A stretch of 33,037 nt of DNA, taken from Candidatus Cloacimonadota bacterium (lineage in GTDB: Bacteria > Cloacimonadota > Cloacimonadia > Cloacimonadales > JAMOQM01). Below the pieces are notes generated by a model. It ran no database searches, had not been told where the DNA came from, and was given only the letters and a program-made list of their open reading frames with translations. Of this stretch, positions 20,946 to 27,965 are shown piece by piece. A program made the position numbers and the translations under genes. Location: NCBI GenBank assembly GCA_027064005.1, contig JAMOQM010000118.1, positions 1 to 33,037 on the forward strand. Direction: 5' to 3'. Each line of letters starts with the position of its first letter. The first letter of the stretch is position 1.

Positions 20946-20972
20946 AAACCCCGCTTTTCAGTGGGGTTTTTT
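20946..20972 (+). terminator. Intrinsic terminator after clpX
   Basis: AACCCCGC pairs with GTGGGGTT (one G-U), loop TTTTCA, then six T. It sits between convergent genes; on the minus strand the tail is TTTATTTT, so it may also stop the leftward operon. Confidence 0.93.
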
Positions 20973-20990
20973 AATTCCTAAATATTGATC

Positions 20991-21779
20991 TTAAAAATTA
21001 GCATTCAAATCTTTAGTAATTGTATAAACTTTCATAATTTCTTCTTTTGAATATGAATCCTTTTTGCTATCAATAATCTTTTTAACATCTTCCAACGATG
21101 TAATTGATTTCGTTACGTAAGCAGAATTTTTCATAGTTTTATTCTGAATATTTTTCAAATTATCGATTAAAGAATTTAATATTCCTTTTTGATTAATAAT
21201 TGAAGTTTTATCTTTTGAGTAATTATTGTTAAGTAATTCGCTTACTTTATTAAGTCCTTCAACCCAACCACCTAATTGTAAAAGAGTAAATAAATCATAT
21301 TGTCTTGTCTCATACAAAGAAATCTCAACTTGACTTTTATAATTATCCAAAGCTGTTTTTAACTCTTCCCATTTATCATTTTTGATAAGAGTTTCAAGTT
21401 TGTCTGCTAATTGTAAAATATCGTCTTTAATTCCTAAAAATTTGGAAAGGTCAACCATCTTCTGAGCAATTTGTAACAAAGCAGTCTTATTATGAGCTTG
21501 AGTCGCAATGATTCCGTCAGCAGTTAATTTACCAAGTTGGATTGCTGCTCGCCCAATATCCGTTTGATTTGAATCAAATTTCTTTGGTAAAACCTTATCA
21601 TAATCTGATAAATTTAAAAAATCTAAAGAAGCAAATAATTTTCCAAATGCAGGTAACGGATGATTAATTACCGAAACTTTTACATTAGCTTTTTTTGGTT
21701 TAATCTTTTTTGTTTCTTTTTTAGTACATCCAAAAAATACTAAAGATGACAAAACAAGAATTGGTATTATTCTCTTCAT
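20991..21779 (-). CDS. Helical lipoprotein of unknown function, last gene of the PP2C/ABC operon
   Basis: 262 residues. MKRIIPILVLSSLVFFG followed by Cys18 is a lipoprotein signal and lipobox. After a Lys-rich linker the protein appears all-helical, with a recognisable stretch RAAIQLGKLTADGIIATQAH (about 85-104) followed by amphipathic helices. I do not recognise a named family. It starts 9 bases after the ABC-transporter gene with a strong ribosome site (AAGGGGG), so it is co-transcribed and a good candidate for an outer-side partner of that transporter. Convergent with clpX. Confidence 0.85.
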   Translation of the reverse strand: MKRIIPILVLSSLVFFGCTKKETKKIKPKKANVKVSVINHPLPAFGKLFASLDFLNLSDYDKVLPKKFDSNQTDIGRAAIQLGKLTADGIIATQAHNKTALLQIAQKMVDLSKFLGIKDDILQLADKLETLIKNDKWEELKTALDNYKSQVEISLYETRQYDLFTLLQLGGWVEGLNKVSELLNNNYSKDKTSIINQKGILNSLIDNLKNIQNKTMKNSAYVTKSITSLEDVKKIIDSKKDSYSKEEIMKVYTITKDLNANF

Positions 21780-21788
21780 TTTTCCCCC

Positions 21789-24700
21789 TTATTCTTTGTA
21801 AAAGAATTTTAGTTTTATATATGTTAATAAATTAAACATAAAAATATACATCAAAACAATCATTAAATCAAAATAAAAAGTTTTTATTTTCATTCCCATA
21901 AAATAGGAATCTCCGGCAAGGAACAACTTTTTATGGGTATTCAACGATTTTCCTTCCATCATATTTACCACAAATTCAATTCCTTCATTTTGATATTTTT
22001 TATAAGGATATTTTTTTGCGATAACACCTTTCTCATCATAGATTTTATTCATTTCTTCCTGATAATCCGTTGACGATACCATACCTTTTTTAAAATTATC
22101 AAGTAATGTCAATCTTTTTCTCTCAAGTTTTTCAATATTCCGGTCATAAGTATTAAATCGAGCTTGAGCAGTAAACATACCTTCAAATAACCATCTTGAA
22201 GGAATAAATTGGACAACTTCCGGAACGGCGCTTTTTTTAAACACTTTAAGATCACGATTCATTTTATCAAATTGAATTATAGCTCCACCGAAAATTATTT
22301 GGGGAATCACAATCAAAGGTAAAAGATTAACTATTGCTTTAGAATTATTTAACACTGAAGACATCAAAAGTCCAATAGACGAACCGATCATACCGGATAA
22401 TAAAAGATAAGTAACGTTTGGCCAAAATACACCTCGAATATCCAAAATCATTGAACTTAAAAAATAGTATAATAATGATTGGATGCCGACAAAAACACTC
22501 AAAGTAATAAATTTAGAGATTAAATAATAACCGGTGTGGATATTTAATTTTCGTTCTCTAATAAATATTTTCTTTTCCTGAAAAATATCCTCAACACTAT
22601 TAGATAATCCCAAAAAAATAAAGAGAATAATGGATATAAAAAGATAAATACCGCCGTTGACATTTCCGTAATAACTATATTTATCTTGCAAAGGTGCTAA
22701 TCGCAAAATCCAGGCAATGATAACTGCCAAAATTGGTGCTTCAATAAAAGTTATAATCGTATTTGACCTATTCCTAAACTTAATATAAAAATTTCTCAAA
22801 AAGAATGTTCTTAATTCTTCAATATTTGTTTTTAAATTATATTTTCTTTTGGGTCGTTTTATTTTACCTGAATTCCCTTCTTCTTCATCCTTTTTACCGG
22901 AATAAACCAAATCAAACAAAACTTTCTTTTTGAATTTATTTTTCCAATAATGATCAGGAAAAAGGCGTTTAATCGTCAAATTATTATTAATGAGTTCAAA
23001 GGTTAATTCATCATTTTTATTATAAACGGGATATTCAATAATATCAAAAAAATAGTCCGGAATTTTGTTCTCTTTCTTCTTTTCAATAAATTCTTTACGT
23101 TTTGTAATCTTAGATAATTCAATATTAAAATAGTCAAAAGCCTCTTCTTTATCACCAAAAAAAACTTGCGTACCATTTTTATCTAATAAAAGCACTTTAT
23201 CAAATTTATCAAAAATAAACTGATTAGGTTGATGAATTGAAACGATAACTATTTTACCTTGAGATGATATTTCTTCTAAAATATCCATAATTTGTTCAGA
23301 ATCATTTGAAGAAAGTCCGGAAGTAGGTTCATCACAGATTAATAACGTTGGGTCAAAAAGGATTTCCAAAGCCATATTTAGACGTTTTCTTTCACCTCCA
23401 CTCAACAATTTATCCCCTTCATATCCAACCCGAGTATCTCGTTTATGACTAAGATTAAGTTTAATGAGAAGGTTATTAATTTTGTTTTCAATAACTTCTA
23501 AAGAGGCTATTTTTATTCTAAGTTTAGCTCTAAAAAGAAGATTTTCATAAACTGTCAGATTTGAAAACAACAAATCATCTTGTGGAACATAACCAATATA
23601 TTGCGAATAAAATCCGTAATTATCAAACAAATTTTTCCCATCAACAATAATATTTCCTTTATCAGGAATAAATTCAGCTGAAATTGCCTTCAACAATGAA
23701 GATTTCCCGCATCCACTTTTACCCATAATTGCAACAAATTCTCCATTTTTCGCATTAAATGAAATTGAATTTAGGGCAATTTGTCCATCACTATAAGTAT
23801 GTTTTAAATCGATAAAAGAAATCTTATCAATCTCGAAAGGAATCTCGATTAATTCAAAAAAAGAGTTTATCTTGAAATTTTTACGGTTAATTGTAATAGT
23901 ATCTCTATTGAGTAAGAATTCTTGCCTCTCCACCACTTTGACATTATTTAGATATAAATTCCAACCTCTTTTAGTTGGCGGATTAATCAGATATTTGTGA
24001 TTCTCATTTTCAATATGAATTATCGTTTTTGAAGATTCATTTTTAGAAATAAAATAGTCTTTTTCAAAATTAATAAATAAATCATCAAAACTTAAATCTG
24101 CTGTTCCAATATTATCTCTCTGACTAATAACATCCAGTAACGTAAATTGCTCGTAATTCTCAATTTGAATCAAATCATCAAAATAGAGAGAAACTTCCTT
24201 ATAATATGGTTGGAGTGTACCATTTAAATAAATCTTACCTTTGGCAACAACCAATGAAAAACGATTTCTATTATTAATAATCTTAAACTCATAATCGTCT
24301 TTTTTAAAATCTATAACATCATAAATTTGTTTATTGGCATTAATTTTATATAACAATTCGTTAGTTAATTTAGTTTTCCCAATTTGCAAAATAGAATCTT
24401 CCGGAATAGCATATAATCTGTTTGGCATCAAAGCATTACCATTCAGAATACAATTAACTTTAGAATTTGTACCAATAAAAATATATTTATTTATCACAAA
24501 AAGAAGAAATTCAAAATTAAGATACTTTTCTCCCCGGAATAATATTTCGCATTTTTTATCATTTCCGGCAACAATATAATCTTTGAAAATAGAACGAGAA
24601 AAATGGCTAAAATACTTAAATCCACTGATAGAAGCTGTTTCCTTCGAATCGTTTTCAATAAAATTAAAAATCTCAGATAAATCGTGAGGATCAATATGAA

Positions 24701-25067
24701 AAGCGATTGCCAAATCCAACAATAAGGTTACTTCTTTAGTTTCCAATTCATTATCAGAATTTGCCAAAATAATGAGACTCAATAATATCCGTATTTTGTC
24801 TAAAGTGATGAGATTGATATTTAACGATTCAACTATTTTTTCAAATGGAATATCTTTTTTGTAAATCTCTCTGATATAATTTTCCCAAGATATTTCTTGG
24901 TCGGTAAAAAGATTTTCTAATAATGAATAAAGAATATTGATTTCATCATATTGATCGTTCTGCATCGACTTTATTACCTTAAGATAAAGTCGTACAATCA
25001 TTTCTACAGTTTGACCGTTCTTCAAGTTATCTAAATTTTTTTGAGCTAATTTATTTTGATATTTCAT
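21789..25067 (-). CDS. ABCG-type transporter fused to N-terminal TerB-like and FHA-like domains
   Basis: 1,092 residues, a half-transporter with a large cytoplasmic N-terminal part. Residues about 75-155 look like a TerB-type helical domain (LANSDNELETKEVTLLLDLA). Residues about 165-410 look like two or three FHA-like beta-sandwiches (YIFIGTNSKVNCILNG; KIYLNGTLQPYYKEVSLYFD; NLYLNNVKVVERQEFLLN) but lack the usual Gly-Arg and Ser-x-x-His of phosphothreonine-binding FHA. The ATPase has Walker A GKSGCGKSS (about 447-455), Q-loop YVPQDD, signature LLSGGERKR, Walker B LLICDEPTSGL, and switch SIHQP. The C-terminal third has six hydrophobic segments with a large loop before the last (ABC2 type). FHA-ABC fusions such as mycobacterial Rv1747 are regulated by Ser/Thr kinases. 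It overlaps the PP2C gene by 17 bases. Substrate unknown. Confidence 0.9.
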   Translation of the reverse strand: MKYQNKLAQKNLDNLKNGQTVEMIVRLYLKVIKSMQNDQYDEINILYSLLENLFTDQEISWENYIREIYKKDIPFEKIVESLNINLITLDKIRILLSLIILANSDNELETKEVTLLLDLAIAFHIDPHDLSEIFNFIENDSKETASISGFKYFSHFSRSIFKDYIVAGNDKKCEILFRGEKYLNFEFLLFVINKYIFIGTNSKVNCILNGNALMPNRLYAIPEDSILQIGKTKLTNELLYKINANKQIYDVIDFKKDDYEFKIINNRNRFSLVVAKGKIYLNGTLQPYYKEVSLYFDDLIQIENYEQFTLLDVISQRDNIGTADLSFDDLFINFEKDYFISKNESSKTIIHIENENHKYLINPPTKRGWNLYLNNVKVVERQEFLLNRDTITINRKNFKINSFFELIEIPFEIDKISFIDLKHTYSDGQIALNSISFNAKNGEFVAIMGKSGCGKSSLLKAISAEFIPDKGNIIVDGKNLFDNYGFYSQYIGYVPQDDLLFSNLTVYENLLFRAKLRIKIASLEVIENKINNLLIKLNLSHKRDTRVGYEGDKLLSGGERKRLNMALEILFDPTLLICDEPTSGLSSNDSEQIMDILEEISSQGKIVIVSIHQPNQFIFDKFDKVLLLDKNGTQVFFGDKEEAFDYFNIELSKITKRKEFIEKKKENKIPDYFFDIIEYPVYNKNDELTFELINNNLTIKRLFPDHYWKNKFKKKVLFDLVYSGKKDEEEGNSGKIKRPKRKYNLKTNIEELRTFFLRNFYIKFRNRSNTIITFIEAPILAVIIAWILRLAPLQDKYSYYGNVNGGIYLFISIILFIFLGLSNSVEDIFQEKKIFIRERKLNIHTGYYLISKFITLSVFVGIQSLLYYFLSSMILDIRGVFWPNVTYLLLSGMIGSSIGLLMSSVLNNSKAIVNLLPLIVIPQIIFGGAIIQFDKMNRDLKVFKKSAVPEVVQFIPSRWLFEGMFTAQARFNTYDRNIEKLERKRLTLLDNFKKGMVSSTDYQEEMNKIYDEKGVIAKKYPYKKYQNEGIEFVVNMMEGKSLNTHKKLFLAGDSYFMGMKIKTFYFDLMIVLMYIFMFNLLTYIKLKFFYKE

Positions 25068-25782
25068 AAGATAAAATTACCATGGTTATATTATCCTTAC
25101 CACCATTTTCCAGAGCTGTATCCAATAATTTCAGTCCTAATTTTTCAACATCCTTTGCATTATCAAAAATTTTTTTAATCTCAGATTCAGGAATCATATC
25201 AGTCAAACCGTCAGAACAAAGCAAAATTTTATCTTTATCTTTCAAATCGGTTTTCCCCGAATCAATTTTAATCTTACTTCTACCAAGCATCGAAGTTATA
25301 ATATTATTTTCGGGATGAACCCGCATTTCTTCTTTAGTTAATAGACCTTTGAGATATTTATCCCATAAAAGATTATGATCAGCCGTAAGTTGTTTGAGCT
25401 CGGTTCTCACTTGATAAATTCTACTATCACCCACAGAAACAAAATACATTTTTTTGGAAATTATTAAAGCCATGGCAATAGTAGTTCCCATCTTATTAAA
25501 GCTAATCTGATGTTGTTGTTCTAAAATTAAAGCCTGATTCGCTCTAATCGTAATTTCCTTCAAACATTCAAGCGGATCTTTTATGGCATATTTTACTTTG
25601 TCAAAATTCTTAAGAATATACTCCACGACAAATTTACTTGCAATTTCTCCGCCCGGATATCCACCAACTCCATCACAAACTATATACAATAGATTTTCAT
25701 CATTACTCTTCGCACAATAAAAATAATCTTCATTATTAGTTTTGTAATTCCCGATATGAGTCAAAGCAGTATATTTTATCAT
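25051..25782 (-). CDS. PP2C-family Ser/Thr protein phosphatase
   Basis: 243 residues, a complete stand-alone catalytic domain. Metal-binding Asp motifs are all present: NNEDYFY (about 16-22), CDGVGGYPGGEIAS (D37, G38), VGDSRIY, LTADHNLL, LLCSDGLTDMI, and GGKDNITMVIL near the end. It removes phosphate from Ser/Thr, using two Mn/Mg ions, in the cytoplasm. It overlaps the methyltransferase upstream by four bases (ATGA) and the ABC/FHA gene downstream by 17 bases, so the three are translationally coupled. The usual partner, a Hanks-type kinase, is not in the window. The FHA-like domains next door make the transporter a likely target. Confidence 0.95.
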   Translation of the reverse strand: MIKYTALTHIGNYKTNNEDYFYCAKSNDENLLYIVCDGVGGYPGGEIASKFVVEYILKNFDKVKYAIKDPLECLKEITIRANQALILEQQHQISFNKMGTTIAMALIISKKMYFVSVGDSRIYQVRTELKQLTADHNLLWDKYLKGLLTKEEMRVHPENNIITSMLGRSKIKIDSGKTDLKDKDKILLCSDGLTDMIPESEIKKIFDNAKDVEKLGLKLLDTALENGGKDNITMVILSYEISK

Positions 25783-26483
25783 TTTCTTTCTAATACGAAA
25801 CTTATTAAGGCAGGTTTTAAATTCAATTTATTAAGGATATCATCAATTAATTTCCAATGTTTGAACTTGAGAAATTTAAGATATTTATTTAGACGAAAAA
25901 GAGTCAAAAATTTATTCATATAATATTCTGTTTTAACGATTTTCAGCCCACAATTCTTAAATATTTCGGCTAATTTAATCTCATCAAAAGAATGAAGATG
26001 TGCATTTAAAGGCGTTTTTTTGTTACAATAAATACAAAGTGAATAACGGATTTTCTCTCTAAAAGGAACAGATAATAAAATTTTCCCATTTGGTTTCAGA
26101 AATTTCTTCCATTCATTAAGAGCGGATTCAGGATTTTCCAAATGTTCCAAAACCTCATTGGCAACAATCCAATCGAATTTTTCTTCATTAAAAGGTAAAT
26201 GATTTGCATCGCCTAAAATAGTTTTTATTCTGGGATTTAACGATTTTATTTTTTCCAAATTCTTTTGTGATAAATCAAGAGAAGTAACGTTGACCTTTTT
26301 ATCAGCAATTTTTAGAGAAAACCAACCTCGACCGGATCCTATTTCTAAAATATCATCATTTCTTTTTGAATCACATAAAGCCAAAATTGTTTGATTCCGT
26401 CGTTCCTCATTTATTCCTAATTGGTCGTTTGCAAAATAATCAAATAACTCTGCATCAATTTTATAATGCTCTTGATAATTCAT
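25779..26483 (-). CDS. SAM-dependent methyltransferase (Methyltransf_11 type)
   Basis: 234 residues, class I Rossmann-fold methyltransferase. Motif I is LEIGSGRGWFS (about 46-56), the acidic residue after strand 2 lies in SLDLSQ, motif II region is LGDANHLPFNEEKFDWIVAN, and EVLEHLENPESALNEWKKFL follows. A CIYCNKK pair of Cys lies in the C-terminal half. The acceptor is not predictable; relatives act on lipids, quinones, sugars and proteins. First gene of the four-gene leftward operon: AAAGGAAA precedes ATG and TTGAC lies about 50 bases upstream (26537-26533). Confidence 0.88.
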   Translation of the reverse strand: MNYQEHYKIDAELFDYFANDQLGINEERRNQTILALCDSKRNDDILEIGSGRGWFSLKIADKKVNVTSLDLSQKNLEKIKSLNPRIKTILGDANHLPFNEEKFDWIVANEVLEHLENPESALNEWKKFLKPNGKILLSVPFREKIRYSLCIYCNKKTPLNAHLHSFDEIKLAEIFKNCGLKIVKTEYYMNKFLTLFRLNKYLKFLKFKHWKLIDDILNKLNLKPALISFVLERK

Positions 26484-27092: not shown

Positions 27093-27166
27093 TGGGGTGT
27101 CGTCTAATGGTAGGACAGCGGATTCTGGTTCCGTATGTGGGGGTTCAAATCCTCCCATCCCAGCCA
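27093..27166 (+). tRNA. tRNA-Gln (anticodon CTG)
   Basis: 74 bases with encoded CCA. Acceptor TGGGGTG pairs with CATCCCA (one G-U), the anticodon loop TTCTGGT gives CTG, and U1-A72 is again present. A second Gln tRNA dedicated to CAG. Confidence 0.95.
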
Positions 27167-27194
27167 AGAATCAATACATTTTAAAGAAGAGAAT

Positions 27195-27965
27195 ATGCAC
27201 AGAAAAAGACATTTATCGTTAGTACTTAGAATATTTTTTTACATTTTACTTTTATCTATAATTTTTTATCAACAAATTAAAATTAACAAAACCAGTAATA
27301 AATTATCTAAAATTCATATTTTTACAGCAACAGCTGATTCTATCAAAATATCAAATTTAATTGAGAATAAAAATATCCCGAAAATATTACTATCAAATGA
27401 TTTCATAGCAAAGACTTTTCAACTTCATTCTCCTTTTAATGATTCCTTATCTTTTAAAGAATTGTTAAAAAAATATATTCATTCCAAACATCAAGATTTA
27501 TATGGAGCTCCGCGAAGCACCGGAGAATACAAACGAATCCATGAAGGAATTGATTTTTTTGTACCTGAAAATACACCCCTTTACCCTTTAAGTAATTTTG
27601 GAATTGTAACCGAAGTTGAAGATAATGCTAATTTTTTAATGGATGTTAGAGCTATTGATAAATCAGGAAATCCCGTAACAATTCAAGTTTCCTATGGAAA
27701 GATTGTTAAAATTGCTTACCCTGAAGGATTCTCATCCATATATGCACATTTAAATAAAATTTACGTTAAAACCGGAGATATTGTAAATCAAAACACTAAA
27801 ATCGGATTAAGCGGATATACGGGAAATATAAGATTTAGCGGAAAACCATCTCATCTTCATATGGAATTACGCGACAAAGACAACCAATCTTTTGACCCCA
27901 AAAACCTAATTTTACTAAAAAAAGTTGATCCAAATTTCTTTTTTAATAAGATTATTTTCAAATAA
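27195..27965 (+). CDS. M23-family zinc metallopeptidase, membrane-anchored
   Basis: 256 residues from ATG 27195; the longer frame that starts inside tRNA-Gln is not credible. MHRKRHLSLVLRIFFYILLL... is a basic leader plus one membrane helix, so the catalytic part lies outside the cytoplasm. M23 (LytM/NlpD type) zinc and catalytic residues are in place: H116 and D120 in HEGIDF, then IYAHLNKIYVKTGDIVNQ, GLSGYTGN, and H220/H222 in SHLHME. These enzymes cut peptide bridges in peptidoglycan; the match here has the full residue set, so it is probably active. It begins 28 bases after the tRNA cluster without a promoter or strong ribosome site, suggesting co-transcription with the tRNAs. Confidence 0.88.
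   Translation: MHRKRHLSLVLRIFFYILLLSIIFYQQIKINKTSNKLSKIHIFTATADSIKISNLIENKNIPKILLSNDFIAKTFQLHSPFNDSLSFKELLKKYIHSKHQDLYGAPRSTGEYKRIHEGIDFFVPENTPLYPLSNFGIVTEVEDNANFLMDVRAIDKSGNPVTIQVSYGKIVKIAYPEGFSSIYAHLNKIYVKTGDIVNQNTKIGLSGYTGNIRFSGKPSHLHMELRDKDNQSFDPKNLILLKKVDPNFFFNKIIFK

Follow-up and report, generated by a model that had tools for sequence, protein, structure and literature searches.

A pair of adjacent genes in a Candidatus Cloacimonadota genome, within a 33,037-nucleotide window (the whole stretch of DNA analysed), encodes an ABC exporter and a lipoprotein that form an ancient pair conserved across Cloacimonadota and Bacteroidota. The reading that we favour, with moderate confidence, is that of an unnamed exporter-lipoprotein pair in which a docking platform in the cytoplasm receives signalling inputs that vary from one lineage to another. 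Its core would be a two-gene export module, consisting of an ABCG half-transporter and a helical lipoprotein (LP). The TerB and FHA-like N-terminus of the transporter would serve as a regulatory platform for protein docking, as its folds and gene neighbours suggest, where lineage-specific signalling proteins would dock without classical phosphothreonine reading. Such inputs would include the Sia partner switch in many Bacteroidota and cyclic-nucleotide-binding proteins in a paralogue branch of Cloacimonadota; in the genome studied here, the pair would be co-transcribed with the sole PP2C detected (a Stp1/IreP-like Ser/Thr phosphatase) and a class-I methyltransferase (MT).

Organization of the gene cluster

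The cluster comprises four tightly packed minus-strand genes in the order MT-PP2C-transporter-LP (Table 1), located in a genome of 2.4 Mb (G000). MT overlaps PP2C by 4 bases, PP2C overlaps the transporter by 17, and the transporter is separated from LP by 9 bases, in agreement with the four overlapping or closely spaced leftward genes described in an earlier note on this DNA. A stem-loop lies beyond LP, and an intergenic stretch and plus-strand tRNAs precede MT, so that a single transcription unit is plausible; the stem-loop weighs little in this respect, with 4 such sites in the region against 2.2 expected. The M23 peptidase open reading frame as listed (27135-27965) starts inside tRNA-Gln(ctg) (27093-27166); translation probably begins at the Met at 27195 instead.

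Table 1. Features of the gene cluster, with window coordinates, strand and supporting evidence.
Feature	Position	Strand	Evidence
MT, class-I SAM-dependent methyltransferase of 234 aa, opening the operon	25779..26483	-	Pfam Methyltransf_11 E 1.1e-21
PP2C Ser/Thr phosphatase, Stp1/IreP-like, 243 aa	25051..25782	-	PP2C_2 E 1.5e-16, catalytic motifs complete
TerB/FHA-like ABCG half-transporter, 1092 aa	21789..25067	-	Pfam ABC_tran 3.2e-33, ABC2_membrane 9.2e-18, TIGR00955 7.4e-76
TerB-like helical N-terminal part of transporter, aa about 2-138	24654..25064	-	AF2 helices, Pfam TerB in homologues
Three tandem FHA-like segments of transporter, aa about 145-409	23841..24635	-	AF2 + Foldseek, Pfam FHA matches in homologues (14/26)
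Helical lipoprotein LP, 262 aa, Cys18 in signal region	20991..21779	-	AF2, adjacency to transporter
Stem-loop, possible terminator, between convergent clpX and LP genes	20946..20969	plus	sequence

An ABCG core preceded by TerB-like and FHA-like domains

The transporter carries its nucleotide-binding domain (NBD) N-terminal to the ABC-2 membrane domain (TMD) in one chain, as in ABCG half-transporters, with Walker A at residue 449, the LSGG signature at 555 and Walker B at 575. The protein matches ABCG2 (PDB 6eti) across residues 444-933 (E 2.2e-37) and resembles the ABCG/pigment-precursor permease family TIGR00955 in this NBD-then-TMD layout, although its 256 bits fall far under the cut-off of 736 of that model, and it differs from the family in its 413-residue TerB/FHA-like N-terminus and its lipoprotein neighbour. 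The transporter presumably works as a homodimer, and the direction of transport would be export.

An AF2 model of residues 1-413, built from an alignment of 26 homologues (mean pLDDT 86), consists of helices at 2-138 followed by three beta-rich segments (about 145-235, 249-302 and 329-409). The best PDB matches in Foldseek are FHA domains, including those of KIF13B, DgcB, MEK1, Rad53 and OdhI, with probability 1.0, TM over target of about 0.6 and rmsd of about 2 A, and with weak E-values (4e-3 to 0.08 among the listed matches, none below 0.001). The FHA domain of Pfam was detected in the N-termini of 14 of the 26 homologues (best 8.7e-8), and an FHA fold N-terminal to the NBD, as in Rv1747, is thus recovered by prediction and in relatives. 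TerB was likewise found in 14 of 26 (best 6.6e-7). The window protein itself matches TerB (PF05099) below threshold, at 18.0 bits for a curated cut-off of 24.4 (E 0.014 to 0.0036), and the TerB identity of the helical part is supported by the family-level Pfam matches. The structure prediction proposed in the earlier note recovered the FHA-like folds that it had expected, and the matches in relatives lend support to its TerB-like domain.

The same note had remarked that the FHA-like repeats lack the canonical phosphothreonine-binding residues, and the alignment agrees. In the first segment, the column of the phosphothreonine-binding Arg holds Arg in 5 of the 28 sequences, and the window protein has Asn there; the classical Gly-Arg ... 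Ser-x-His pattern occurs in a few members only, L034 being the closest, and the window protein has Gly-Asn. In the second and third segments these residues, judged by eye on the alignment, are not conserved. As a class, the FHA-like segments are probably not phosphothreonine readers, as far as their sequences tell.

The lipoprotein is conserved beside the transporter

The LP N-terminus is hydrophobic and ends at Cys18, a Cys that is nearly invariant, by eye, in 19 orthologues, as in a lipoprotein signal peptide with its lipobox cysteine. The AF2 model is helical (pLDDT 84), with no fold match in the PDB and no match in Pfam. LP lies directly beside the transporter in 21 of 25 Cloacimonadota carriers (19 loci read, plus G011 and G012 from coordinates) and is encoded away from it in the other four. 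It is present in all 25 carriers and in 13 of 34 non-carriers (Fisher p 2e-7, uncorrected for kinship). Moreover, the LP families of Cloacimonadota and Bacteroidota are homologous end to end (hhalign 98.6%, E 9.8e-16). LP would act on the periplasmic or outer-membrane side, and the suggestion that it is the outer-side partner of the transporter is supported by this conserved adjacency.

LP is not a strictly dedicated transporter partner, since it persists in 13 genomes without transporter, all of family f10. There, among the genomes inspected, it mostly lies in a DUF2851-LP-c365-c232-c276-c212 locus, at the place that the transporter takes in carriers. Either LP has a role or linkage independent of the transporter, or these genomes have lost the transporter that once stood there. 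A conserved set of membrane-protein genes, c365-c232-c276-c212, lies close to LP in both f10 and f8 (L041-L050, L248-L254), and in f10 it stays with LP even where the transporter is missing.

PP2C and MT are not linked to the transporter in relatives

The comparison set comprised 59 genomes, namely the window's own and 58 of the same order, all 58 outside the window's own family; 25 of the 59 carry the transporter. A single-protein search of contigs found no relatives; an alignment-based search did. In the NBD-TMD tree, the window forms the first branch of a 20-row Cloacimonadota clade (support 100) and is the only row there with PP2C. Indeed, PP2C lies beside the transporter in none of the 24 relatives, and MT in none of their loci, both arrangements occurring only in the window. 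No PF13672 gene was detected in 13 carriers, of which 10 reach at least 90% completeness, and the co-occurrence of transporter and PP2C is not positive (odds ratio 0.44, p 0.18). The four genes had been taken for a functional unit that related genomes should keep together; the relatives retain the transporter and LP side by side, and not PP2C or MT.

Two other accounts of the PP2C neighbourhood were rejected. A PP2C hidden past the contig ends in G004 and G042 was ruled out by the sequence found upstream of the transporter, which is HsdS-like (by eye) or holds no PP2C-like frame. In G029, a PP2C gene directly follows clpX (L207:5078-7184), and clpX also neighbours the window's operon; an ancestral PP2C-clpX linkage was ruled out, as no other clpX locus read shows it.

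The strongest of the alternatives, and one that we take as a serious contender, is a chance or housekeeping grouping, in which a general phosphatase and MT are driven by the same promoter as the exporter pair but have no functional link to it. The orthologues of MT and PP2C have varied neighbours elsewhere and neither is kept with the transporter, as this explanation would predict. However, the genes overlap tightly, and with every compared genome coming from another family, the relatives do not show that the arrangement is transient; for the same reason, the PP2C-transporter link may be specific to the window's own family.

The PP2C phosphatase and the kinases of this genome

PP2C matches the Stp1/IreP model NF033484 over its full length with 227.4 bits, slightly short of the curated cut-off of 230, and its best PDB matches are bacterial PP2C Ser/Thr phosphatases; it differs from Stp1/IreP in lying beside a transporter, not a kinase. 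No second PF13672 gene was detected in its genome. The statement that no kinase is present holds for the window, where the operon contains no Ser/Thr kinase gene of the kind found with Rv1747, but not for the genome: the search for Hanks kinases identified two, both on contigs other than the window. The first (1016 aa) carries an FGE-sulfatase domain and lies two genes from the only canonical FHA gene found in the genome, which retains the GR, S..H and NG motifs; in this locus (L067:12333-18128), a 204-aa gene comes after the one for the kinase-FGE-sulfatase protein, and next to it is the gene for the 705-aa protein that carries the canonical FHA. The second (1828 aa) contains TPR and histidine-kinase domains. 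An explanation by missing kinases was ruled out, as Hanks kinases occur in 57 of the 59 genomes, carriers or not. Because it is the sole PP2C found and two Hanks kinases are encoded elsewhere in the genome, PP2C is read as a general phosphatase, probably the general counterpart of these two unlinked kinases, with the transporter perhaps as one of its substrates.

In four f10 genomes, a very distant Zn-ribbon-FHA-ABCG protein with canonical FHA lies near FHA proteins, VWA-FHA proteins and PP2C. These loci (L063-L066) encode FHA-ABCG together with Zn-ribbon-FHA, VWA-FHA, PP2C and an M48 peptidase or lipoprotein, and two of them, L063 and L066, have a Hanks kinase gene downstream. They were ruled out as a homologous arrangement, since they form a separate, very distant branch in the tree.

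That PP2C dephosphorylates the transporter, or a partner of its FHA-like domains, and thereby gates transport in a dedicated four-gene system, as the earlier note had suggested, now appears unlikely. The 17-base overlap implies coordinated translation of phosphatase and transporter, the genome does hold kinases, PP2C accompanies canonical FHA-ABCG and VWA-FHA proteins in f10 (with a kinase in two of four loci), and a PP2C-superfamily phosphatase of SiaA type is found in 21 of 42 Bacteroidota loci (among the matches listed). Nevertheless, PP2C is uncoupled from the transporter in relatives, including 10 near-complete carriers without PF13672, the f10 proteins belong to their own remote branch, the phosphothreonine-binding residues are not conserved, and one detected PP2C would serve two kinases. 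Phosphorylation-gated export by these four genes is possible, and the comparative data in this lineage give it no support.

Signalling neighbours in other lineages

Other signalling genes accompany related transporters. In a paralogue branch of Cloacimonadota, cNMP-binding-domain proteins are encoded directly downstream of TerB-ABCG, one or two of them at each of the loci L057-L060, L062, L053, L054 and L073. The transporter N-termini are homologous between phyla. In Bacteroidota the homologues measure about 1020 aa, with Pfam TerB in 31 of 32 (best 7.2e-11) and, in the profile alignment, a shorter FHA-like stretch; the N-termini are longer in the homologues from Verrucomicrobiota, Kapaibacteria and Delongbacteria. 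In a Delongbacteria homologue (L077:6753-8147), a GAF domain takes the place of TerB. Two transporters, on contigs L072 (labelled Armatimonadota) and L120 (labelled Planktophila), are nested in the Cloacimonadota and Bacteroidota branches, and the contigs are probably misbinned.

The 42 Bacteroidota loci (L107-L148) are the best-scoring matches listed, and their frequencies are not those of a random sample. Among them, an LP homologue lies near the homologous transporter, mostly directly beside it, in 35, SiaB and SiaC are close by in 22, and the SiaA-type phosphatase, found in half of the loci, is of the SpoIIE kind. A common order among these matches is CheR-CheR-CheB-GAF-SiaA-SiaB-SiaC-ABC-LP; for example, L127:573-11808 reads CheR-CheR-CheB-GAF-SiaA-SiaB-SiaC-TerB-ABCG-LP, an apparently undescribed signalling-transport cluster. 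In Pseudomonas, whether SiaC is phosphorylated at Thr68 depends on SiaA and SiaB (PMC7647112). Since Bacteroidota homologues stand beside this SiaA/SiaB/SiaC switch, it is still plausible, by analogy, that transporters of this class are controlled by phosphorylation. Among the Cloacimonadota genomes compared, SiaC was found in 9, every one a carrier (9/25 versus 0/34, p 1.6e-4, uncorrected for kinship); there the sia genes lie elsewhere than at the transporter and mostly precede another gene, of about 325 aa; the window's genome gave no match to SiaC (PF09345).

A broader form of the docking-platform reading, in which the pair would be an export system gated by signals and widespread among Bacteroidota, Cloacimonadota and their relatives, with interchangeable Sia, cNMP and PP2C inputs whose phosphorylation or ligand state switches export, is put forward only tentatively and seems rather doubtful at present. 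We also regard as unlikely an ancestral Sia-type control (SiaA phosphatase, SiaB kinase, SiaC phosphoprotein) whose linkage Cloacimonadota lost and which PP2C replaced here. The Sia-ABC-LP order of many Bacteroidota, preceded by CheR-CheB-GAF, the confinement of Cloacimonadota SiaC to transporter carriers and the action of SiaA and SiaB on SiaC in Pseudomonas would fit such a history, yet SiaC is missing from this genome, the Cloacimonadota sia genes are off the transporter locus, and the tree is ambiguous at its deepest forks as to which arrangement came first. Finally, modification of the exported cargo or lipid by MT, to which its place in the operon and its 4-base overlap with PP2C might point, is very improbable, given that the MT orthologues of 7 relatives (45-51% identical) all lie away from any transporter locus and that five of these genomes lack a TerB-FHA-ABC orthologue.

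Relationship to known systems

To our knowledge, very few examples of ABC export gated by FHA domains have been described, Rv1747 being the main one, and we found no paper on the TerB-FHA-ABC arrangement in the open-access literature searched, which is not proof of its absence. Rv1747 of Mycobacterium tuberculosis, encoded with PknF, is likewise a single-chain ABC half-transporter with a cytoplasmic FHA and a Ser/Thr phospho-signalling gene in its operon. FHA I of Rv1747 binds phosphothreonine and the operon holds a kinase (PMC5549992, PMC3908365), whereas here the phosphothreonine-binding residues are unconserved, a TerB-like domain comes first, the adjacent gene encodes a phosphatase, and the transporter has a conserved lipoprotein partner. 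The likeness to SiaABC of Pseudomonas aeruginosa consists in the homologous SiaA-type, SiaB and SiaC genes beside Bacteroidota transporter-LP pairs; it does not extend to the SiaC target, which in Pseudomonas is a diguanylate cyclase (PMC8457831), not a transporter.

An exporter-lipoprotein pair that is retained in two phyla and accompanied by differing signalling modules would offer a tractable family for the study of exporter control by direct protein contacts. The Bacteroidota version can be tested at the bench, as a single gene cluster there holds the complete SiaA/B/C set and one record or more, among them Marinilabiliaceae bacterium JC017 (L127), is not labelled as metagenome-assembled.
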